Below, one piece after another: positions 958 to 43,681 of a DNA stretch of 64,000 nucleotides; positions within the stretch are counted from its first letter, which is position 1; every line of letters begins with the position of its first letter. Origin of the DNA: an uncultured Flavobacteriaceae bacterium. Lineage in GTDB: Bacteria; Bacteroidota; Bacteroidia; Flavobacteriales; Flavobacteriaceae. The position numbers and the translations under genes were made by a program. The notes beneath the pieces are model-generated. The model saw only the letters and a program-made list of their open reading frames with translations. It was not told the DNA's origin and did not search any database. The stretch lies in contig CAJWAA010000013.1 of the NCBI GenBank assembly GCA_913020295.1, positions 1 to 64,000 of the forward strand, written 5' to 3'.

Positions 958-3411
958 TTAGTTGAATATCTTTGGATTCAGTACTTTTTTAGAGAGAATG
1001 GCAATATCAAGTACCTCTCTCATTTCCCTCACATAATGGAAAGCTAGACCTTTGAGATATTTTTGATTGATTTGATCTATATCCTTTTTGTTATCTTCAC
1101 ATAAAATAATCTCTTTAATTTTGGCTCTTTTGGCTGCAAGAATCTTTTCCTTGATCCCTCCCACAGGCAAAACTTTTCCCCTCAGGGTAATCTCTCCTGT
1201 CATCGCTAATTTACTTTTTACCCTTCTTTGAGTGAAGAGTGAAACCAATGAGGTGAGCATGGTGATTCCAGCACTAGGGCCATCCTTTGGGGTTGCTCCC
1301 TCTGGGACATGAATATGAACATTGTAACGGTCAAAAGCAAAATTTTCCAAACCCAAAATTGATTTGTTGGATTTGATAAACTCCATGGCAATGGTAGCAG
1401 ACTCTTTCATTACTTTACCCAAATTTCCAGTAATTGAAAGCTGACTTTTACCCTCAGAAATTGCAGATTCTATAAATAAGATATCCCCCCCTACCGAAGT
1501 CCAAGCCAAGCCTGTTACAACTCCTGCCACATGGTTGTTTTCATAAAGATCGCGATGTACTTTTTTTGGTCCAAGGATTTCAACTAAATCCTCAGGCACT
1601 GGGTTATTTTTGTAGGACTCCTCCATGGCGATAGATTTGGCAACATAACGCACCGCTTTAGATACTTGTTTTTCGAGACCTCTAACACCCGATTCACGAG
1701 TATATCCTTCAACAATTTTATCCAACACAGATTTGTTTAGGGTCAGATCTTTGTTATTTAACCCATGTTCTTTGAGCTGCTTAGGTAACAAATGTCTTTT
1801 GGCAATGGCAGACTTTTCCTCCAAAGTATAACCGGATATATTTATCATTTCCATTCTATCCCGAAGGGCGGGATGAATTGGCGAAAGACTATTTGCTGTG
1901 GCAACAAACATTACTTTAGACAAATCATAACCCATTTCCAAAAAATTATCGTAAAAGGCCGTGTTTTGCTCAGGATCTAATACCTCGAGCAACGCAGCTG
2001 CAGGATCACCTTGAACACCGGTACTGATCTTATCGATTTCATCCAAAACGAACACAGGGTTTGAGGTACCAGCTTTTTTTACACTTTGGATGATACGACC
2101 CGGTAAAGCACCAATGTAAGTCTTTCTGTGACCTCTTATTTCGGCTTCATCGCGCATTCCACCTAATGAAATTCTGACGTAGGTTCTTCCAAGGGCTTCA
2201 GCAATTGATTTTCCCAATGAAGTCTTACCTACCCCAGGAGGACCAAACAAACACAAAATGGGGGACTTCATATCATTACGGAGTTTTAATACTGCCAAAT
2301 ATTCAATAATACGCTTCTTTACATCTTCCAATCCGTAATGATCCCGATCAAGTACTTTTTGCGCGTTCTTTAAATCAAATTTATCCTCTGAGAATACATC
2401 CCAAGGAAGGTCGAGAAAAAGATCCAAATAATTTCTTTGTACAGAATACTCTGCAACCTGAGGGTTCAGCCGTTGTAATTTGGACAATTCCTTATCAAAT
2501 TGCTCTCCAACAGCTTTATTCCATTTTTTTTCTTTGGAACGCATACGCATTTCCTCTACCTCTTGTTCTAAAGAAACAACACCCAATTCCTCTTGAATAG
2601 TTTTCATTTGTTGGTTTAGGTAATACTCTCTCTGCTGTTGATCCAAATCTGTTCTAACCTTAGATTGAATATCATTTTTTAATTCTAATTTTTGATACTC
2701 AATATTCATTAACTTAAGACATTCAATTGCACTTTCTTGAAGATCAAATATTGATAAAACCCTTTGTTTTTCCTTAACAGAAAGGTTCATGTTGGAGGAA
2801 ACAAAATTGATTAAAAATGCATGGCTCTGTATATTTTTGATAGCAAAGGAAGCCTCAGAAGGTATGTTAGGGTTTTCGTGAATAATCTTCAAAGCCATGT
2901 CCTTTATGGAGTCAATAATTGCCTGAAATTCAGAATTATTTTTTTTTGGAAAAGTCTCTTGAACAGGTTTTATACTTGCCTTCAAATATGGTACATTTTT
3001 GGTTATACTTTCTATCTCAAATCTTCTTTTTCCTTGAATAATAACCGTTGTGTTTCCATCTGGCATTTTTAAAACCCTCAATATTTGAGCTACCGTTCCC
3101 AAAGAATATAAATCCGCAGGTGATGGATTTTCGATGTTCTGATCCTTTTGAGCTACCACACCAATGATTTTGTTAGATTTGTTGGCATCCTTAATCAGTT
3201 GAATGGATTTATCCCTTCCAGCTGTAATGGGTATAACCACGCCCGGGAAAAGGACAGTATTTCTTAAGGGAAGAATAGCTACTTCCTCTGGTAATTCTTC
3301 ATTCCTAAGTGCTTCCTCATCTTCTGTGGTAAGCAAAGGAATTAGCTCTGCTTCAGTTTCAATATCTCCGAGTGTCAAATTGTCAAATGATGTAAAACTA
3401 GATTTGGCCAT
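958..3411 (-). CDS. lon: ATP-dependent Lon protease
   Basis: Cytoplasmic AAA+ serine protease that degrades damaged and regulatory proteins. The order is an N-terminal LON substrate domain (PLRNTVLFPGVVIPI), a coiled-coil middle, an AAA+ module with Walker A GPPGVGKTS near residue 390 and Walker B FVLDEIDK, and a C-terminal peptidase domain. The catalytic serine is in PKDGPSAG (about residue 715) and the lysine in GGIKEKILAAKRA (about 760), giving the Ser-Lys dyad of LonA. An ATG six codons further upstream (3429) is also possible. I prefer the one opening MAKSSF because flavobacterial homologues begin that way. It is followed closely by cmk. Confidence 0.97.
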   Translation of the reverse strand: MAKSSFTSFDNLTLGDIETEAELIPLLTTEDEEALRNEELPEEVAILPLRNTVLFPGVVIPITAGRDKSIQLIKDANKSNKIIGVVAQKDQNIENPSPADLYSLGTVAQILRVLKMPDGNTTVIIQGKRRFEIESITKNVPYLKASIKPVQETFPKKNNSEFQAIIDSIKDMALKIIHENPNIPSEASFAIKNIQSHAFLINFVSSNMNLSVKEKQRVLSIFDLQESAIECLKLMNIEYQKLELKNDIQSKVRTDLDQQQREYYLNQQMKTIQEELGVVSLEQEVEEMRMRSKEKKWNKAVGEQFDKELSKLQRLNPQVAEYSVQRNYLDLFLDLPWDVFSEDKFDLKNAQKVLDRDHYGLEDVKKRIIEYLAVLKLRNDMKSPILCLFGPPGVGKTSLGKSIAEALGRTYVRISLGGMRDEAEIRGHRKTYIGALPGRIIQSVKKAGTSNPVFVLDEIDKISTGVQGDPAAALLEVLDPEQNTAFYDNFLEMGYDLSKVMFVATANSLSPIHPALRDRMEMINISGYTLEEKSAIAKRHLLPKQLKEHGLNNKDLTLNKSVLDKIVEGYTRESGVRGLEKQVSKAVRYVAKSIAMEESYKNNPVPEDLVEILGPKKVHRDLYENNHVAGVVTGLAWTSVGGDILFIESAISEGKSQLSITGNLGKVMKESATIAMEFIKSNKSILGLENFAFDRYNVHIHVPEGATPKDGPSAGITMLTSLVSLFTQRRVKSKLAMTGEITLRGKVLPVGGIKEKILAAKRAKIKEIILCEDNKKDIDQINQKYLKGLAFHYVREMREVLDIAILSKKVLNPKIFN

Positions 3412-33937: not shown

Positions 33938-36070
33938 TTACGGCTTAATTATTTTGAAGTCAGTCCTCCTATGTTGAGAATGTTCCTCTTCAGATAGTTT
34001 ACAACAATTACATTTATTAATCCAAACCTGAAAACCTTTTTTTCTAATTTTTTTTGCCATTTTTTGGGCTATAGAATAAGTGTTTGCCTGTCCTAGAATA
34101 AGATGGTATTGATCTTTTTCAGTCTTATTGACAATGATTTCATATCCTAGCTTCTGATATTTTTTTTGATGATGTATAGCATTGTTTAAATCTTTAAAAG
34201 AACCTCCTACGATTAAATAATCTAAAGTATTATTTCCAGAAATAGTATTTTCTCCATATCCCTTTCCAAAAATTCTATCGCTGTTTCCAATCTGTTTACT
34301 TACATAGTTAATGATGGTTTGATTCCTTTTTTGAGAGAGCTTTAAATTGTAATCTTTACTTCCCCTACAATCAGTATATGAACTTACCTCTATAATCATA
34401 TCTGGATTTTCCTTCATGGCGTCAACCAAAGTATCAACGCGATCCTTATAATCCTTTAATAAATTTGATTTGTTGAAGTCATAAAAAATAGGTAAAAAAG
34501 TTTTTTCCATGCTTGAAGTTAACTTTTCAATTGAAACTTCAGAACGCCTAAGTAAAACCTTTGTAGATGGGGATTTACCGTATTTACTTTTAATGATATA
34601 GGAGAAAGAATCTTTTACCTTTGAAGGATCCTCATTTTTGTATAGAAATGAACCATTACTGTTGAATTTTAATGTCCCATGATGGACATCATTGACAAGC
34701 TCAGCTTCTTTTGAAAATAAAGATGTTAGTGGATCATAACTCAACATTTCTAGGTTGTCATTTTTTAGAACCCCATTTTGAGACATGATTAATGTGTCAA
34801 TGGGGTTATAAATATAATGATCCTCTATACCCGATAATTTGGGTGTGAATTTAAATACATAAATATCGTCTTCTAAGTCATCAGTATTACGATTTGAGCT
34901 CATCATACCATATTCGAGTTGATCACTGAGTGAGAAGGAAAAATCATCCAATTTGCTTTGAAATGGAGCGGGTAAATTCATCACATACCATCTCACATCG
35001 ATGGTGTTAATGGCCAATTTGAGAGATAAGCCTCCATCATCAGCTTTACTGCTGTAAAAAAGGTGATTTTTGCCGAATGCAAAAGGGAAAACTTCATCTC
35101 TAGTGGAATTGATATCGGGTCCAAGATTTACCGGTAAACCATATTTTTCATCACCTAGAATATCAACATAATACAAATCCATCCCTCCAAACCCACCAGG
35201 ACGATCACTGGCAAAATATAACCTTTGATTTTGTAAATTCACAGAAGGGTGTATAGTTGAGTAACCTTTCAGATTGAATGGGAGGGCATGTGCAATTGGT
35301 TTTTTATTAATGTTATAATTAAAGCTATAGAGGTCTAGCTGAATAGTTTTTTGTTTTTGAGAACTTTTAGAACTCCTTGTAAAATAAAGAATTTGGTTAA
35401 GGCCATCCCAACTCGAGGGTCCATCTTGAAATACAGAATTTATTCCTAATTCAAAAGCTTTTGGTGATTGGGCTTGAAGATTTTTGGAGTCCCACTCTGC
35501 CTTATATAAGTTGTATATTGGGGTTCTTGAAATAATTTTTTTACTTAAACCTTTAGTGAACTCTTTAGATTGATTTTTCGTGTATATTAATAAATTTTTA
35601 TCATTAAAATTAATCACATGGGCCCCGAATTCCGATCCCTCTGTATTGAGAGCTAAGGGAACCAATTTGTATAAGGGATTAACTGGATCAATAGGTTTAT
35701 GGGAGTATTCTTCTATAGGTAATCGAATGGCTTTCCTTCGGTATTCATCTCTCAACTTTACATCATTGGAAAGATAAGAAGCAAAGTAGTAGTAATCTTT
35801 TACAAAGGCAGAATCGGAGTCTACCAGGGGTTTTAGGGTTCTTGCTGCCTCTTCTAGTTGTCCCCTTTGGGCATAAACCCTGGAAAAGTTTCTTCTCGAC
35901 TTAAGAGGTATGGATTCTCCCATTTTAGAGTAGAGAGAAAATGCTTTATCGAAGTCTTTATTCATAAAATAATAATCCGCCCACTCCAAAATACGATTGT
36001 TTCTAGTAGAATTTTGTCCCATTAAACCATGACAAAAAAACAATCCGAGTAGCAGCAATAGGGTTCTCAT
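33938..36070 (-). CDS. OmpA-family protein with WD40-like, cadherin-like and inserted SPOR domain (T9SS-associated)
   Basis: A 710-residue exported protein (signal peptide ending HGLMGQ). The order is TPR-like helices (20-120), WD40-like/PD40 beta-propeller (about 220-400, with RLYFASDRPGGFGGMDLYY), a cadherin- or VCBS-like domain (about 420-508, NGVLKNDN, HGTLKFNSNGSFLY), and an OmpA C-terminal domain. OmpA starts FYDFNKSNL (528) and has the peptidoglycan-binding Asp and Arg in SYTDCRG and QKRNQ. It is interrupted after GYGEN by about 70 residues matching SPOR (YLIVGGSFKDLNNA to GFQVWI), then resumes EEHSQHRRTDFKI. It follows the PorP/SprF gene after 2 bp and probably anchors that complex to the wall. 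Confidence 0.88.
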   Translation of the reverse strand: MRTLLLLLGLFFCHGLMGQNSTRNNRILEWADYYFMNKDFDKAFSLYSKMGESIPLKSRRNFSRVYAQRGQLEEAARTLKPLVDSDSAFVKDYYYFASYLSNDVKLRDEYRRKAIRLPIEEYSHKPIDPVNPLYKLVPLALNTEGSEFGAHVINFNDKNLLIYTKNQSKEFTKGLSKKIISRTPIYNLYKAEWDSKNLQAQSPKAFELGINSVFQDGPSSWDGLNQILYFTRSSKSSQKQKTIQLDLYSFNYNINKKPIAHALPFNLKGYSTIHPSVNLQNQRLYFASDRPGGFGGMDLYYVDILGDEKYGLPVNLGPDINSTRDEVFPFAFGKNHLFYSSKADDGGLSLKLAINTIDVRWYVMNLPAPFQSKLDDFSFSLSDQLEYGMMSSNRNTDDLEDDIYVFKFTPKLSGIEDHYIYNPIDTLIMSQNGVLKNDNLEMLSYDPLTSLFSKEAELVNDVHHGTLKFNSNGSFLYKNEDPSKVKDSFSYIIKSKYGKSPSTKVLLRRSEVSIEKLTSSMEKTFLPIFYDFNKSNLLKDYKDRVDTLVDAMKENPDMIIEVSSYTDCRGSKDYNLKLSQKRNQTIINYVSKQIGNSDRIFGKGYGENTISGNNTLDYLIVGGSFKDLNNAIHHQKKYQKLGYEIIVNKTEKDQYHLILGQANTYSIAQKMAKKIRKKGFQVWINKCNCCKLSEEEHSQHRRTDFKIIKP

Positions 36071-36072
36071 AA

Positions 36073-37011
36073 TTAGAATATTCTAGGTGAACGAAGCGCG
36101 GATCTTAGAGCAGGGATCAAATCAAAGCGCAACATAATTTCGTGGGTAGCATGGTTATTACTTATCACATTTCCCAATGCTGAAGTATTATAGGAATATC
36201 CTAAAGATATACTTTTATTGATATTTACACCGGCAATCAGTCCAAATCCACCCCCAAATTCATTGCTTGGAACTCCTTTTTCCAGCGTAGATCTTATTTG
36301 CGGACCAATCCAAAAAAGCTTGCTATATAATATGAGGATACTCAAATCGTAGGCGAAAGCAGCATCCTGGGTATGCTTGAACAAGGTACTGGGTTTTGCC
36401 TCAAAACTATCTGAAATCTTTAGCAGTCCTCCCAAGATTGCATAATAATGCTTTTGTGTGTTGAAATTTTCGTTCTCTATAAACCAAGGCACTGAAAATC
36501 CAACATACCACCGTGGCAGGTGATAGTAGAGCCCAAAACCTATATTAGATAAAAACTTTCCTTCATCATCAAAAGAAAAAGCTAAATCGTTAGGCGTATT
36601 AGTTTCAATGATGTTTTCATCGAAATTAAAATTAGTCATTCCTATTTTAATACCAACAGCCAGGAATGCATCATTAATTGAAAGGTGATAGGCCAAATCA
36701 ATACCCACTCGACTAATGTTCGTCGGTCCAATTCTGTCATTTACACCGGAAAATCCGAAACCAATGTTTTTGGAAGTCATTTTATGATTGAAAGTAAAAG
36801 CCTGAGATTCAGGGGCACCAGGAAAATTCATCCATTGGGTTCTATGAAGTATTGCAAGTTGTGTATAATCTTTGGAACCAACATAGCCAGGATTTAGACT
36901 TTGGTGATTGAACATATACTGCGAGAATGTCAACTCTTGTTGTCCTTTAAGGGTTGAGGTAATACATAAAAGTATCAAAAAACCGATAAAAGAAGAAATG
37001 GTCAATTTCAT
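36073..37011 (-). CDS. PorP/SprF family type IX secretion system membrane protein
   Basis: A 312-residue outer-membrane beta-barrel. The signal peptide is followed by QELTFSQYMFNHQSLNPGYVGSK, shortened here to QYMFNHQSLNPGY, which is the hallmark of the PorP/SprF family. In Flavobacterium johnsoniae SprF is required for surface display of the adhesin SprB. It is divergent from the giant type B cargo gene and followed by the OmpA-SPOR gene, so it is likely the dedicated outer-membrane partner of that cargo. Confidence 0.95.
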   Translation of the reverse strand: MKLTISSFIGFLILLCITSTLKGQQELTFSQYMFNHQSLNPGYVGSKDYTQLAILHRTQWMNFPGAPESQAFTFNHKMTSKNIGFGFSGVNDRIGPTNISRVGIDLAYHLSINDAFLAVGIKIGMTNFNFDENIIETNTPNDLAFSFDDEGKFLSNIGFGLYYHLPRWYVGFSVPWFIENENFNTQKHYYAILGGLLKISDSFEAKPSTLFKHTQDAAFAYDLSILILYSKLFWIGPQIRSTLEKGVPSNEFGGGFGLIAGVNINKSISLGYSYNTSALGNVISNNHATHEIMLRFDLIPALRSALRSPRIF

Positions 37012-37156: not shown

Positions 37157-40100
37157 ATGAGGGTTGTTTTTTTTAGGAATTTGTTTTCCTTAATGGGCCT
37201 GTTTGCTGTTCAATTCCTTTTTGCTCAGCTAAGTAAGGTTCACTATATCCCACCCATTGCCGCTCACGGAGCGGTAAATTCAAATGCATATCCTCTCGAT
37301 CAGTATATTTACATTTCTACACCTTCAAATAATGATATAAATTATTCAATCACCCCCATCGGAGCCGCATTTAGTAGTATAATTTCAGATGTTGTCTCTA
37401 ATTCATCTCCAAATGTACATTCAATAGGTTCTGGACCTACCAACTTTGCAATTGTAAATTCACAATTTTATGGAGGTAGGATTATCGATGATAAAGGATA
37501 TATAATTACTGCAGATTCTCCCATATATGTTGCTTTGAGACTCAGAGCAAGCAGAAGTGGTGATAGTTCACCTGATCAAGCTGGAGCATTGGTAAGTAAA
37601 GGCTTGTCTGCATTGGGAACTTCTTTCAGATCTGGAACCTACACAAGTCAGAATCCTGGAGCCAATAACAGTAACTCCAATTATTTAAATTTTGTCTCAA
37701 TGATGGCAACTGAAAATAACACCCAAGTTGTGGTAGATAATTTGGATAAAGCTTTGGACTTGGCTGGTATTGCCTCCCCCGGTGGTACAGGAACATTTTC
37801 ACAAACTTTCACTTTGGATAAGGGGGAAACCTATCTAATTGCTGCAGAGGCTGAAAACGCCATTGCTAACAGAGATGGATTAATAGGTATTTCTATAGAA
37901 TCAGACAAACCCATTGTAGTTAACAGTGGGTCTGCTAATGGAAGTTTTCATAACGGAGGAGGTAGAGATTACGGAATTGACCAACTCGTTGGTGCTGACA
38001 AAATAGGAAATGAATACGTTTTTGTTAGAGGCAGTGGATCAGATGGATGGGAGAATATTCTAGTAGTAGCTCACGAGGATGATACTGATATTTACCTGGA
38101 TGGGGATTTATCACTTGTATTTGCCAATTTAGCTAAAGCTGGAGACTATGTTTTAATTGAGGGAAATGAATATAGAAATGGAGGATCAAATAGAACACTA
38201 TATGTAAGTACATCAAAAAATGTTTATGCTTGGCAGGGTATTGGTGGAACAACCAGTGAGGCTAACCAAGGAATGTTTTTTGTTCCTCCACTTTCCTGTC
38301 AAAGTCAGGGTGAAGTTAACAATATTCCTTTTATTGATAAAATTGGAACAGCTAATTTCCCAGGATTTGTAACCATTGTCACTAATCAGACAGCATCTGT
38401 TACTTTTTCAGACGATGCAAATACTAATAGATCTCTAGACGATTTAAGTTTTGATGGTGGCGTTAGCGTTACAGGTCCAGAGCTTGTATCAGGTGTTAAT
38501 TATAAAGCCTATATTATTGAAGATCTAAAGGGAAACGTTTCCATTTATTCAACAGAAGAACTTTATTGTTCATATTACAACCAAAATGGTCTTGCAACCT
38601 CAGGTGGTTTTTACTCTGGTTTTATTTCAGCTCCAGAAACAATTATTGAGTCACCTGTTTTAAGTGGAGAAGTATGTTTGCCCAACGTGCAATTGAGAGC
38701 ATCAGGTTTGGATGTATATGATAGCTTTAAATGGTTCTATAATGATGGGAGTGGTTATGTAGATATTGGAGTTAGCATAAACCCTTATTTACCAAGTGCC
38801 CCGGGGTCCTACAGAATTAGAGCTGAAAAAACATGTGATGGGGTTATAACAAATGTAGCGTATTCCAAACCAGCCGTGGTGAGTAATTGTCCACCAGATT
38901 TTGATGGTGATGGTATAAATGATAATATTGACTTGGATTTGGATAATGATGGTATACTAAATGATTATGAATCTCTTGGGGATTATCAACTTGACATTTC
39001 TGATCTCAACGATCCCTTGATTATACAAACATCAACTATAACTATTGGAGGAGCATACACAGTCTCAAGTGTAATTGCCTCCGATAGTTCTATCATTCAA
39101 AATGGAATTGGAGAAATTACCTCTTCTCTAGCCTCTGGTGGGAATCAAAACCAAATGGAGTGGAACTTTAATGATCAAGTAAATTTTAAATTAATTCATA
39201 GCCTTACTAATAATCATTCATTTTTGGATGGCGAGTCGTTTGTCATATCAACAAGTTCAGTAAGCCAGAGTATCTCCCTATTAAATCCAAATAATGATTT
39301 ATTGGTTGACACCAACTTTGATAATGACTACGAAAGTGGCCTTACCCTTCATTCCTCAAATGAAATAAGGTTCAGGTTTAATAGCTCAGTTACAACAAGT
39401 CCCACTTTTTCGTTTTTAGGTCAAAATATGAATAACCTTACTCTAACTCATGTTAACAGTGGAGTAACGACTTCAGTTTTTAATTGGAATTTATTATTAC
39501 ATCAAAATTTCTTAGATACTGATGGAGACGGTACCGCTGATTTCTATGACCTTGAAAGTGATGGTGATGGTTGTTCAGATGTAATTGAAGCAGGTTTTAC
39601 GGACAGCGATCCTGTACCTGACGGAATTTTGGGAGCTTCTCCTGTTACGGTAAGTTCTTTCGGGCTAGTTGCTGGTTATGATGGGTATGTTGTGCCAAGA
39701 GATGCTGATCTCTCTGGAATCTATGACTTTCAGGAGGTGGGAAGCGCGGCTTTGGCTACTAACATCATTACACACCCCAATGTACAAGGTATTTGTTTAG
39801 GGGGTAGTGCGAATTTTGAAGTACAAACTGATCTATCTCAACCCGTTTTACAATGGCAAATATTTGATGGGACCGATTGGATTGATTTGAGTGACGATGG
39901 AACATACAGCAATACTAACTCCTCTGTAATGACAGTAACTCCTGCAGATAATTCATTAGATAACACCTCCTATCGTGTTACTGTGGCCAAAAGAAATTAT
40001 CTGTGCAACCCTGTTATTTCTGATATAGCTTTGCTCAATATGGAACCTCCAAAAGTTTTTACTGTAGAACCGGGGTTATTTAACCTAAGTGAGACGGATT

Positions 40101-43100
40101 CCTCTACTTTATTTAATATTACACTTAATGAAGCACCTACCTCTAATGTGATTTTGGATATATCCAATCCTGATATTACTGAGGCAATAGTTTCCCCTAC
40201 TCAGGTAACCTTCACTCCTGCCAATTGGAATGTTGCTCAATCTGTTTCTATAATACCTATGGAAGACGGACTCTTGGATGGTGACCAAATCATTTATCCC
40301 ACTGTTTCGGTCAATGTTGGCTTGACCCAAAACTGCTTTACTAATGCCGAAGCAAAGACAGTTACATTATCGATTTTGGACGTAAATTCGGCAGGATTTG
40401 ACATTGTTGTTTTGGACAACATTTCAAGTGAAAATGGAGATGAAGCTTCTTTCTCTATAAAACTGTTATCTAAACCATCAGGTATTGTGAGACTTGACTT
40501 ATCCTCGAGTGACCTGACCGAGGGACAGTTAGGAATTGACTATGTTGAGTTTAATCCTTTTAATTGGGATTCCCCCCAAACGATAATAGTAACTGGTTTA
40601 CCTGATCCTATACCGATTAAGGATGGTAATATTGCTTATCAAATAATTACTGGAAATGTCAGTTCAACTGATGCTAATTATGATCTATTAGAGGGTAATT
40701 CGGTTGACAATGTTGATTTTATTAATCAAGATAATTTAGGTCCAGGAATTGAATTGACCGTTGTAGGTGGATCACCAGTAACAGATGAAAATGGGAGTTC
40801 ATTTGTCGTTCAGTTTAATTTACTTTCTCAACCCTTTGGTGGAGCTGACGTAACCTTTGGATTGTCAGTTTCTGGAGATCCGGGAGAAGTATCACTATCA
40901 GCATCATCAGTTACCATCTTAAATGCAGATTGGAACAAACCCTTTAATAATCAAATTACTATAACAGGTCAGGATGACGCATTGATTGATGGAGATATTT
41001 TCTTGGTTTTAGAAACTGCTGACCCCAGCTCAGCCGATATGGTTTATGATAATTTGGAGGAGTTTGATATAGCAGATTTAATCTTTCGAAATTTAGACAA
41101 CGATCAGCCTGGATTTTCTGTTGGAGCTATCTCAAACAATCTGAGTGAAAATGAAAATATAGCTAGTTTCACTGTTGTTTTGGATATCAAACCTAATAGT
41201 GATGTCTTTATGAATATTAACTCTAATGATGCTGGAGAAGTTAGTGTAGATTCAAATTCCCAACAGTTACAATTTACTCCAATGAATTGGAATATTCCTC
41301 AAACGGTTTTGGTATCAGGAGAAGATGATATGGTCATTGACGGAGATCAGCTAACTAAAATTATAGTATCAGTCGATAATGGATCCGACCCCAATTTTTT
41401 GACCGAGCCCTCCCAACATCTTGATGTAATCAATATTGATAATGATAATGCCCAAATCATCATAGATACGATTGATCAATTAAGTGGCGAGGATGGTTCG
41501 TTAGCAAGCTTTTCGGTTCGCCTTAGTGCTGTCCCCTCTGCGCCAGTCGAGGTTAACTGGGCAAGTTCTAATATCAACGAGGGCGACCTTTCAAGTTCTA
41601 CAATCGTATTTTCAACTACCAATTGGAATCAGCCACAAGTCATTACGGTCAGTGGTATTGACGACCTAATTCCCGTCAATGACGGTGCTATTAATTATAA
41701 TATTTTTGTCACTGCTATTTCCAGTACAGATCCTAATTTTGGGAACATTATTCCTGCAAGTATAGCTAACGTACAAATGATAAATCAGGACAATGATTTT
41801 GCTGGAGTGTTGGTCCATCTAATAGATAAAGACAATCAAACCAATGAAAATGGTGATCAAGTTAGGGTTGGTTTTTCACTAAATACAATGCCCATGGGTG
41901 ATGAAGATGTTACTTTACCTGTTGTTCTCCAAAATAATGTTGATGAGATAGCTTTATTAGAAACAGAGATCATTATCGAGAACCAATATTGGGATGATCC
42001 AACGTCCAATATACTCACACTTTATGGTTTGGATGATTTTTTATTAGACGGAAATCAGCAAGTAAACTTTGTAACAGGAGATCCTAAGTCTGTTGATTCA
42101 GCTTATGACCAATTGAACGACTCCTCAGTGGCAGATTTGATTTTGGTTAATTTAGACAATGATTTTCCAGGAATTCTCCTAAGTGGTGCAATAATTCCAA
42201 TGATTCCCGCTGAGTCTGGAAATGTTACTACCACTTACAAACTTTCATACCCCTTGAGTGAATCAAACTCTTCAACGATTTTATCAATTAAATTGAATGC
42301 TCAACCCAATGCCAATGTTATTATTAGTTTTACAATTCCCGATCCTACTGAGTTAGCTCTAAATAAAGCTTTTTTGACCTTTACCCCCCAGAATTGGGAT
42401 GATCCTCAACCCATAACTCTTATCGGAGTAGATGATTACCTTTTTGACGGTGATATTTTGACCAACCTATTAATTTATGTTGATCCCTCAAGTACTGATC
42501 CTGATTATTTGACTGCTGATTTAATTACTGTTGATTTAATAAATCAAGACAATGATATAGATTATGATAATGACGGTCTACATGAAGTCTTTGACAATTG
42601 TCCTCTCGAATTTAATCCTGATCAAATAGATATAGACGGAGATGGTATTGGAGACATTTGTGACGCTGATATTGACGGAGATGGCGTGACAAATGCTCAA
42701 GAAGCTTTAGATATGACCGATCCTAATGATAACTGTGATTTTTTTAATGATAGTATAAGCCTAATAATTACATCTGATCTCGATTGTGATCAAGATGGTG
42801 TACCAAACGATATTGACCTAGATGATGACAATGATGGCATTTTGGATACAGATGAAACATACGACGATTTTGATTCTGACGGAATTGCAAACAACAGGGA
42901 TTTGGACAGTGATGGAGATGGATGTTTTGATGTTAAAGAAGCAGGATTTGAAGATCCAGATCAAGATGGAATACTAGGAAGCAGTCCAGTGGAGGTTGAT
43001 GCTTTGGGTAGAGTCATCTCAAATTCTGGTTATGTTACAGCTCAAGATAGGGACAACTCCGGTAAATTAGACTATTTAGAATTACCGAGAAGTCCAAAAT

Positions 43101-43681
43101 TTTTAATGCAACCACCATCTTCAATGATTGTCATTCCTCATGAAGATATGAAACTAACAATAGATATTGAGAATAGCCAAATGTTTGATATTCAATGGCA
43201 AATTTTGGAACCCTTTGCTACACAATGGCAAGATTTGGTAACATCTGAAGCATTTACGGGGATTGATTCCGAAAATTTAGTTTTACTTAACCCAAAAGAA
43301 TCATTGGTAGAATCCAAGATCAGAGCTGCAATAAGCTCAAAAAACTTTTCCTGTGATCAATCAAACTTTTCACAAGAAACAACTCTCAGATATCAATCTC
43401 TGAATATACCAAATGCTTTTTCACCAGATAATGACGGAGTAAATGATAACTGGGTTATAGAGGGGTTGGGGCAATTTCCTAATCACGACCTCAGGATTTA
43501 CTCTCGTTGGGAGACCCTTATTCTTAGCGAGGCTCCATATCAAAACGATTGGAATGGTGAATCAAGAACTTCCTATTCCAACTCGCATGAACAAAATTTA
43601 CCAGAGGGGACGTATTTTTACATTTTAGATTTAAGAAATGGACAGACGCCTTTAAAGGGTTTTATATATTTGAAAAGATAA
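37157..43681 (+). CDS. Giant T9SS-exported adhesin with type B sorting domain
   Basis: A 2174-residue secreted protein. After the signal peptide (FLFAQ) comes an IgGFc-binding-like region (about residues 60-450), an Ig-like domain, and calcium-binding thrombospondin type 3 motifs (DFDGDGINDN, about 581-605). An EAGF cassette (about 795-860) and an Ig domain follow. Seven beta-sandwich repeats of 110-130 residues (about 964-1800) then form an ABCABCA pattern. A second TT3 block (about 1800-1930), a second EAGF cassette and an Ig domain lead to a C-terminal type B sorting domain (IPNAFSPDNDGVNDNW, about 2082-2174). The type B signal implies T9SS export, as for SprB. The divergent PorP/SprF gene supports this. 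Ligand unknown. Confidence 0.93.
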   Translation: MRVVFFRNLFSLMGLFAVQFLFAQLSKVHYIPPIAAHGAVNSNAYPLDQYIYISTPSNNDINYSITPIGAAFSSIISDVVSNSSPNVHSIGSGPTNFAIVNSQFYGGRIIDDKGYIITADSPIYVALRLRASRSGDSSPDQAGALVSKGLSALGTSFRSGTYTSQNPGANNSNSNYLNFVSMMATENNTQVVVDNLDKALDLAGIASPGGTGTFSQTFTLDKGETYLIAAEAENAIANRDGLIGISIESDKPIVVNSGSANGSFHNGGGRDYGIDQLVGADKIGNEYVFVRGSGSDGWENILVVAHEDDTDIYLDGDLSLVFANLAKAGDYVLIEGNEYRNGGSNRTLYVSTSKNVYAWQGIGGTTSEANQGMFFVPPLSCQSQGEVNNIPFIDKIGTANFPGFVTIVTNQTASVTFSDDANTNRSLDDLSFDGGVSVTGPELVSGVNYKAYIIEDLKGNVSIYSTEELYCSYYNQNGLATSGGFYSGFISAPETIIESPVLSGEVCLPNVQLRASGLDVYDSFKWFYNDGSGYVDIGVSINPYLPSAPGSYRIRAEKTCDGVITNVAYSKPAVVSNCPPDFDGDGINDNIDLDLDNDGILNDYESLGDYQLDISDLNDPLIIQTSTITIGGAYTVSSVIASDSSIIQNGIGEITSSLASGGNQNQMEWNFNDQVNFKLIHSLTNNHSFLDGESFVISTSSVSQSISLLNPNNDLLVDTNFDNDYESGLTLHSSNEIRFRFNSSVTTSPTFSFLGQNMNNLTLTHVNSGVTTSVFNWNLLLHQNFLDTDGDGTADFYDLESDGDGCSDVIEAGFTDSDPVPDGILGASPVTVSSFGLVAGYDGYVVPRDADLSGIYDFQEVGSAALATNIITHPNVQGICLGGSANFEVQTDLSQPVLQWQIFDGTDWIDLSDDGTYSNTNSSVMTVTPADNSLDNTSYRVTVAKRNYLCNPVISDIALLNMEPPKVFTVEPGLFNLSETDSSTLFNITLNEAPTSNVILDISNPDITEAIVSPTQVTFTPANWNVAQSVSIIPMEDGLLDGDQIIYPTVSVNVGLTQNCFTNAEAKTVTLSILDVNSAGFDIVVLDNISSENGDEASFSIKLLSKPSGIVRLDLSSSDLTEGQLGIDYVEFNPFNWDSPQTIIVTGLPDPIPIKDGNIAYQIITGNVSSTDANYDLLEGNSVDNVDFINQDNLGPGIELTVVGGSPVTDENGSSFVVQFNLLSQPFGGADVTFGLSVSGDPGEVSLSASSVTILNADWNKPFNNQITITGQDDALIDGDIFLVLETADPSSADMVYDNLEEFDIADLIFRNLDNDQPGFSVGAISNNLSENENIASFTVVLDIKPNSDVFMNINSNDAGEVSVDSNSQQLQFTPMNWNIPQTVLVSGEDDMVIDGDQLTKIIVSVDNGSDPNFLTEPSQHLDVINIDNDNAQIIIDTIDQLSGEDGSLASFSVRLSAVPSAPVEVNWASSNINEGDLSSSTIVFSTTNWNQPQVITVSGIDDLIPVNDGAINYNIFVTAISSTDPNFGNIIPASIANVQMINQDNDFAGVLVHLIDKDNQTNENGDQVRVGFSLNTMPMGDEDVTLPVVLQNNVDEIALLETEIIIENQYWDDPTSNILTLYGLDDFLLDGNQQVNFVTGDPKSVDSAYDQLNDSSVADLILVNLDNDFPGILLSGAIIPMIPAESGNVTTTYKLSYPLSESNSSTILSIKLNAQPNANVIISFTIPDPTELALNKAFLTFTPQNWDDPQPITLIGVDDYLFDGDILTNLLIYVDPSSTDPDYLTADLITVDLINQDNDIDYDNDGLHEVFDNCPLEFNPDQIDIDGDGIGDICDADIDGDGVTNAQEALDMTDPNDNCDFFNDSISLIITSDLDCDQDGVPNDIDLDDDNDGILDTDETYDDFDSDGIANNRDLDSDGDGCFDVKEAGFEDPDQDGILGSSPVEVDALGRVISNSGYVTAQDRDNSGKLDYLELPRSPKFLMQPPSSMIVIPHEDMKLTIDIENSQMFDIQWQILEPFATQWQDLVTSEAFTGIDSENLVLLNPKESLVESKIRAAISSKNFSCDQSNFSQETTLRYQSLNIPNAFSPDNDGVNDNWVIEGLGQFPNHDLRIYSRWETLILSEAPYQNDWNGESRTSYSNSHEQNLPEGTYFYILDLRNGQTPLKGFIYLKR
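40048..42557 (+). repeat. Seven beta-sandwich repeats in an A-B-C-A-B-C-A pattern
   Basis: Within the adhesin, residues about 964-1800 are seven units ending in variants of N(Q/L)DND. Units 1, 4 and 7 share FTP-x-NW and an (I/L/F)DGD core with a short linker. Units 2 and 5 share ASFS, EG-x-L and IP followed by a (K/N)DG core. Units 3 and 6 share ENG, an (I/L)DG(D/N) core and the ending Y-D-x-L followed by ADLI. The pattern means that a three-domain block of about 350 residues was duplicated. Alignment was by eye. Confidence 0.75.

Follow-up and report, generated by a model that had tools for sequence, protein, structure and literature searches.

An uncultured Flavobacteriaceae bacterium encodes a probable cell wall anchor, a new form of PorE in which a SPOR domain is genuinely inserted into the C-terminal OmpA domain. 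This nested architecture is conserved. The gene occupies 33938..36070 (minus strand) of the window, the 64,000-nucleotide stretch of contig CAJWAA010000013.1 (GenBank assembly GCA_913020295.1) that was analyzed. Its 710-residue product comprises a signal peptide, TPR, a PD40 beta-propeller, a Big_9 Ig-like domain (residues 445-501; 34568..34738, minus strand), and an OmpA domain split by SPOR. The TPR and PD40 matches fall below cut-off in the window protein, with PD40 above cut-off in several relatives; the Pfam match to Big_9 is likewise weak here and above or near the cut-off in relatives. OmpA scores 41 bits against a Pfam cut-off of 27. The first part of the domain (residues 529-608; 34247..34486, minus strand) matches positions 1-82 of the 98-position Pfam profile and ends at the GYGE motif (residues 604-607). 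It is followed by the Pfam-defined SPOR domain (residues 621-684; 34019..34210, minus strand) and then by the end of OmpA, CNCCKLSEEEHSQHRRTDFKIIKP (residues 687-710; 33941..34012, minus strand), which consists of a CNCC loop and a final strand, the missing EEEH..RRTDFKI stretch lying at about residues 694-707.

The original prediction of a SPOR domain inside OmpA was borne out by these Pfam matches, by orthologues with an empty site, and by a split alignment to the PorE structure 6TOP, and homologues across four genera have OmpA interrupted by the same stretch. The predicted SPOR range (615-683) was correct to within a few residues. The end of OmpA does follow SPOR, as had been proposed, but it starts at the CNCC motif (residue 687), slightly before the EEHSQHRR sequence first taken as its beginning.

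Assignment of the insert to SPOR is supported by several comparisons. The Pfam match, for which the gathering score of the SPOR family (PF05036) is 21, reached 23.2 bits (E 8.5e-5) for the full-length protein and 28.3 bits (E 2.3e-6) for the insert alone. Each of the 12 sequences in a diverse alignment of the insert also matched SPOR, as did 12 of 13 congeneric tails (E up to 0.1), and nested proteins from three other genera exceeded the Pfam cut-off. When compared with the PDB, an insert profile retrieved FtsN SPOR (1UTA) as its best hit (E 0.004), with CwlC SPOR (1X60) third (E 0.13). Single-sequence AlphaFold models, which are of low confidence (pLDDT 48 and 56), read the insert as beta-alpha-beta-beta-alpha-beta, the order of the RNP-like SPOR fold, with OmpA strands flanking it at 600-606 and 702-709, giving a tail order of OmpA helix-strand-helix-strand, the SPOR-like unit, and the last OmpA strand. 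Foldseek with the weak insert model returned CwlC SPOR first, at an E value (0.013) that is insignificant by itself. The window domain resembles the SPOR domains of FtsN, CwlC, and RlpA in sequence profile and, in the low-confidence models, in the order of elements but differs from them in being non-terminal, without a flexible linker, and fixed at both ends in another domain.

The nesting is most directly seen by comparing empty and filled sites. In L147, one of the nearest SPOR-less relatives, the site reads GNGLGEINNSLNS joined to NCNCCNISEDVHQLNRRTEF, whereas in the window protein GKGYGENTISGNN is followed by the insert, TLDYLIV...VWINK, and then by CNCCKLSEEEHSQHRRTDF. In SPOR-less close orthologues, the nearest of which belong to genera coded g114, g202, g84, and g71, GLGE joins the CxCC...EEH..NRRTEF ending without a gap. 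Spacing on both sides of SPOR is constant among nested forms, with one exception carrying 23 extra residues before SPOR. The best PDB match of the tail, both by profile and by Foldseek on the whole-tail model (E 7.5e-7), is 6TOP, which the C-terminal-region profile matched twice and in order, at positions 4-88 and 175-186, the latter piece being too short for significance alone; the SPOR stretch fills the gap. At the equivalent place, PorE itself has helices alpha3-5, which are reported to be inserted between beta2 and beta3 (PMC7192894). This points to a loop that tolerates insertions. Tandem SPOR and OmpA domains do exist in other PorE-like proteins (L141 and L069), and one could accordingly imagine that the nesting is a mirage produced by tandem domains with a spurious OmpA tail, by a frameshift, or by a chimeric assembly. 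The chance of this is negligible, given that the gene reads as one uninterrupted frame in almost all of the 16 congeneric genomes and also in three other genera, the split match to 6TOP, and the exact joining of the two OmpA halves in SPOR-less orthologues. All three versions are ruled out by the comparison with empty sites and by how many independent genomes share the nested form.

The window protein is a long match to the NCBIfam PorE-type models NF052230 (1e-53) and NF053607 (9e-57) but reaches neither cut-off (182.6 bits versus 600 and 192.9 versus 620, respectively). By its sequence, it is a distant relative within the PorE family and not the same protein as canonical PorE. It has the layout of the family, namely TPR, PD40 propeller, a third beta domain, and C-terminal OmpA, and the PorP-type neighbor expected for such proteins is present as an adjacent PF11751 gene. 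With PorE of P. gingivalis (PG1058; C-terminal domain 6TOP), it shares this domain order, the diaminopimelate (DAP)-binding Asp/Asn/Arg residues, and extra sequence separating its final two strands (helices alpha3-5 in PorE; PMC7192894). The P. gingivalis protein lacks SPOR, its third domain is carboxypeptidase-regulatory-like where the window protein has Big_9, and it is a lipoprotein, whereas inspection by eye of the N-terminus of the window protein, MRTLLLLLGLFFCHGLMGQN, found no lipobox.

The gene neighborhood agrees with this assignment. Directly upstream lies a gene for a PorP/SprF outer-membrane barrel (36073..37011, minus strand; PF11751, E 5e-59; TIGR03519), followed by a divergently transcribed gene (37157..43681, plus strand) for a 2174-residue surface protein with an IgGFc_binding domain and a T9SS type B sorting domain (PF13585, TIGR04131). 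A type B sorting-domain protein therefore adjoins a PorP-like gene, as in T9SS type B CTD-PorP modules, and is likely the cargo of the PorP/PorE pair. Genes for the adhesin, PorP, and nested PorE stay together in all four genera with the nested form and are co-directional in most. In P. gingivalis, PorE binds PorP, and PorP binds the type B protein PG1035, as established experimentally; six porP-like genes adjoin porE-like genes in F. johnsoniae, and PorE-like proteins have been proposed to tie non-mobile type B proteins to the wall (PMC9143113). The window locus has the same gene set as the PorE-PorP-PG1035 complex and the SprF-SprB pair, that is, a type B CTD protein, a PorP-like barrel, and a PorE-like anchor (PMC9143113), and its products may assemble in a similar way. 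Among the large type B adhesins of Bacteroidota, some are mobile and others fixed, and a PorE-type anchor is the proposed fixed link. Of the roles initially suggested for the protein, adhesin anchoring fits, since the locus encodes both PorP/SprF (the PF11751 gene directly upstream) and a type B T9SS adhesin, whereas beyond PorE homology nothing points to a role in T9SS export. Genome-wide, PorP/SprF and type B sorting domains were each matched five times, mostly as pairs, and the window protein is the only PorE-like protein detected. The type B proteins, on contigs C13, C2, C4, C9, and C3, are encoded by frames of 1253 to 4422 residues in a genome of about 2 Mb, and those on C13, C2, C4, and C9 are adjacent to PorP/SprF genes.

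The nested form was found in 16 of the 22 genomes of the window's genus (window included) and in all four that are at least 90% complete. Outside the genus, it was recovered only in g100, g118, and g197 among 397 sampled genomes of the family, with two copies in one g118 genome, and no further case appeared in partly overlapping samples of the order (396 genomes), the class (345), and the phylum (198), surveyed with profiles tuned to the window's clade, which independent nestings elsewhere could escape. Scanning genome contigs with the single protein gave one close fragment ending before SPOR and one unrelated OmpA match. The nested PorE is more divergent in a few of the genus's species (L018, L019, and L136), and in L136 it lies in a different neighborhood, beside a shorter, co-directional adhesin gene (1155 residues). 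Searches for SPOR together with OmpA, PorE, or SprF in the open-access literature, which is a part of all literature, yielded nothing relevant; Tp0624 was considered as a precedent and set aside, the sole mention of SPOR being among its references. Within the literature searched, a SPOR domain spliced into OmpA is previously undescribed. Two PorE-like proteins combine the domains in tandem, with SPOR before OmpA in L141:4535-6724 and after it in L069:991-2823, indicating that the two families were combined more than once among PorE-like proteins. Both resemble the window protein in having the two wall-binding domain families together with PD40 repeats but differ in their tandem order and whole OmpA domain.

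In a backbone tree built without the insert columns, nested and SPOR-less forms share one subclade (support 100/100), separate from the family's ordinary PorE-like proteins. Within this subclade the nested proteins are not a single clade: the AU test rejects this grouping (p 8e-6), and the tree needs four changes. This scatter, along with SPOR-only profile scores that do not clearly split the nested inserts from other SPOR domains, would be expected if this loop had acquired SPOR in several independent events, an alternative concerning origin and not function, which we regard as unlikely. The insertion point and linker lengths are the same in all genera, and losses, or recombination of the kind seen in L016, explain the scatter with fewer coincidences. 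Given this constancy of site and spacing, the pattern is best read as one insertion in an ancestor of the PorE subclade, at the variable bulge that separates the final two strands of OmpA, followed by several losses among the descendants. L016 (from genome G014) is mostly 91-98% identical to L012 from approximately the start of SPOR through the downstream region and mostly 68-89% identical in the upstream coding part. The identity shifts sharply at about position 3290 of the aligned locus, near where the insert begins, and continues into the downstream sequence, which indicates a recombination breakpoint within the gene and shows that recombination is active. The insert is under purifying selection, with dN/dS of 0.14-0.26 for all but one of the eight pairs compared at dS below 2 and 0.35 for that one; it nevertheless changes faster than OmpA (mean identity 47% versus 71%).

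Residues known to contact the wall differ between the two domains in their conservation. The OmpA assignment rests on both the profile and the Asp/Asn/Arg diaminopimelate site: D567, N575, and R582 (34325..34372, minus strand, in a segment comprising the binding loop and the start of a helix) are invariant in 13 congeneric sequences and spaced identically to D576, N584, and R591 of PorE, which contact DAP (PMC7192894). SPOR domains recognize peptide-free glycan, which is enriched at septa; a glutamine contacting the glycan (Q270 in RlpA) is kept in FtsN as Q251, although most glycan contacts of RlpA SPOR are made through main-chain atoms (PMC6895207). This beta-1 glutamine, a common but not universal SPOR trait, is absent from all 21 nested SPOR domains, which have V, L, I, F, N, or Y instead (V in the window, a further difference from FtsN, CwlC, and RlpA). 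The position of FtsN R285 is occupied by R, Q, H, or K. The glutamine is also absent from all 73 other scorable SPOR domains of Bacteroidota, a biased sample consisting of the best matches to the nested ones. Considering these residues, glycan binding by the nested SPOR is plausible.

The cysteines flanking the insert follow a regular pattern. C568 (34367-34369) directly follows the DAP-binding Asp, and C687-C690 (34001-34012) lie in the loop between SPOR and the last OmpA strand. In 38 of 38 aligned proteins, many of them close kin representing only a handful of independent events, a Cys after the DAP-binding Asp is present when the loop holds one or three cysteines and absent when it holds none or two; where a single loop Cys remains and the alignment is intact, that Cys is the central one of CxCC. 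This is most simply read as a disulphide between C568 and C689, with a second between the outer two loop cysteines, and the pattern suggests a conserved disulphide beside the peptidoglycan pocket. Because the parity holds both with and without SPOR, it is a feature of the PorE subclade, although g197 and g71 lack the trait. The protein is an unusual case of one peptidoglycan-binding fold inserted in another, with a predicted disulphide link that can be tested.

Taken with the PorE homology, the DAP-binding residues, the gene set, and the PorE-PorP-type B complex of P. gingivalis, which together argue for a wall anchor, these features suggest that the gene product is probably a PorE-type anchor that ties a PorP-adhesin complex to the wall and makes a second contact there through SPOR. 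Acting in the periplasm, it would hold the outer-membrane PorP barrel through TPR and the propeller, by analogy with P. gingivalis PorE, while its OmpA domain would bind diaminopimelate of peptidoglycan stem peptides. The C568-C689 disulphide would keep the foot of SPOR next to the DAP pocket, and SPOR would then provide the second contact, most likely with the glycan backbone beside that pocket. Such a rigid, partly disulphide-stapled head could grip the wall at two points and thereby hold a very large adhesin more firmly; this two-point attachment is the best-supported mechanism, and we consider it reasonably likely. The replaced glutamine, the faster evolution of SPOR, and its apparent repeated loss weaken the case for a second contact. 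The same three features, with a basic patch only partly kept, could instead mean that the SPOR fold does not bind glycan and serves as a rigid spacer on the OmpA head, or as an interaction surface for PorP, PorK/GldK, or the adhesin, an alternative that is possible but carries appreciably less weight with us, as the glutamine is replaced in all the scorable Bacteroidota domains of the best-match sample too and RlpA makes its glycan contacts mostly through the main chain (PMC6895207). The nested anchor and its close, natural SPOR-less versions offer a ready comparison for the contribution of SPOR.

Under two-point attachment, the head may also favor peptide-free stretches of glycan, for example at division sites. 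The remaining two SPOR proteins of the genome, an Amidase_3-SPOR enzyme, which carries the only Amidase_3 found, and an HU/CCDC81-like protein beside an EnvC-like gene (the last two names rest on reading the sequence), look division-linked, and their presence implies that a SPOR ligand should exist in the cell. This, and the preference of SPOR for glycan enriched at septa (PMC6895207), could be taken to mean that the domain steers the adhesin complex toward sites of division or new poles, beyond adding grip. We find this doubtful, as the attachment of OmpA to ordinary stem peptides would work against any preference for septa and the SPOR glutamine is missing. Likewise improbable is a two-ligand wall reader, in which OmpA would read stem peptides, the disulphide-stapled SPOR would read peptide-free glycan, and anchoring would occur only or mainly at the amidase-processed boundary at division sites and new poles. 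These estimates overlap, some of the alternatives addressing different questions (function, place, or origin). Near a nested PorE of genome G142, overlapping frames at L071:3416-4748 encode thrombospondin-type-3-like and SPOR-like pieces, perhaps of a frameshifted gene.
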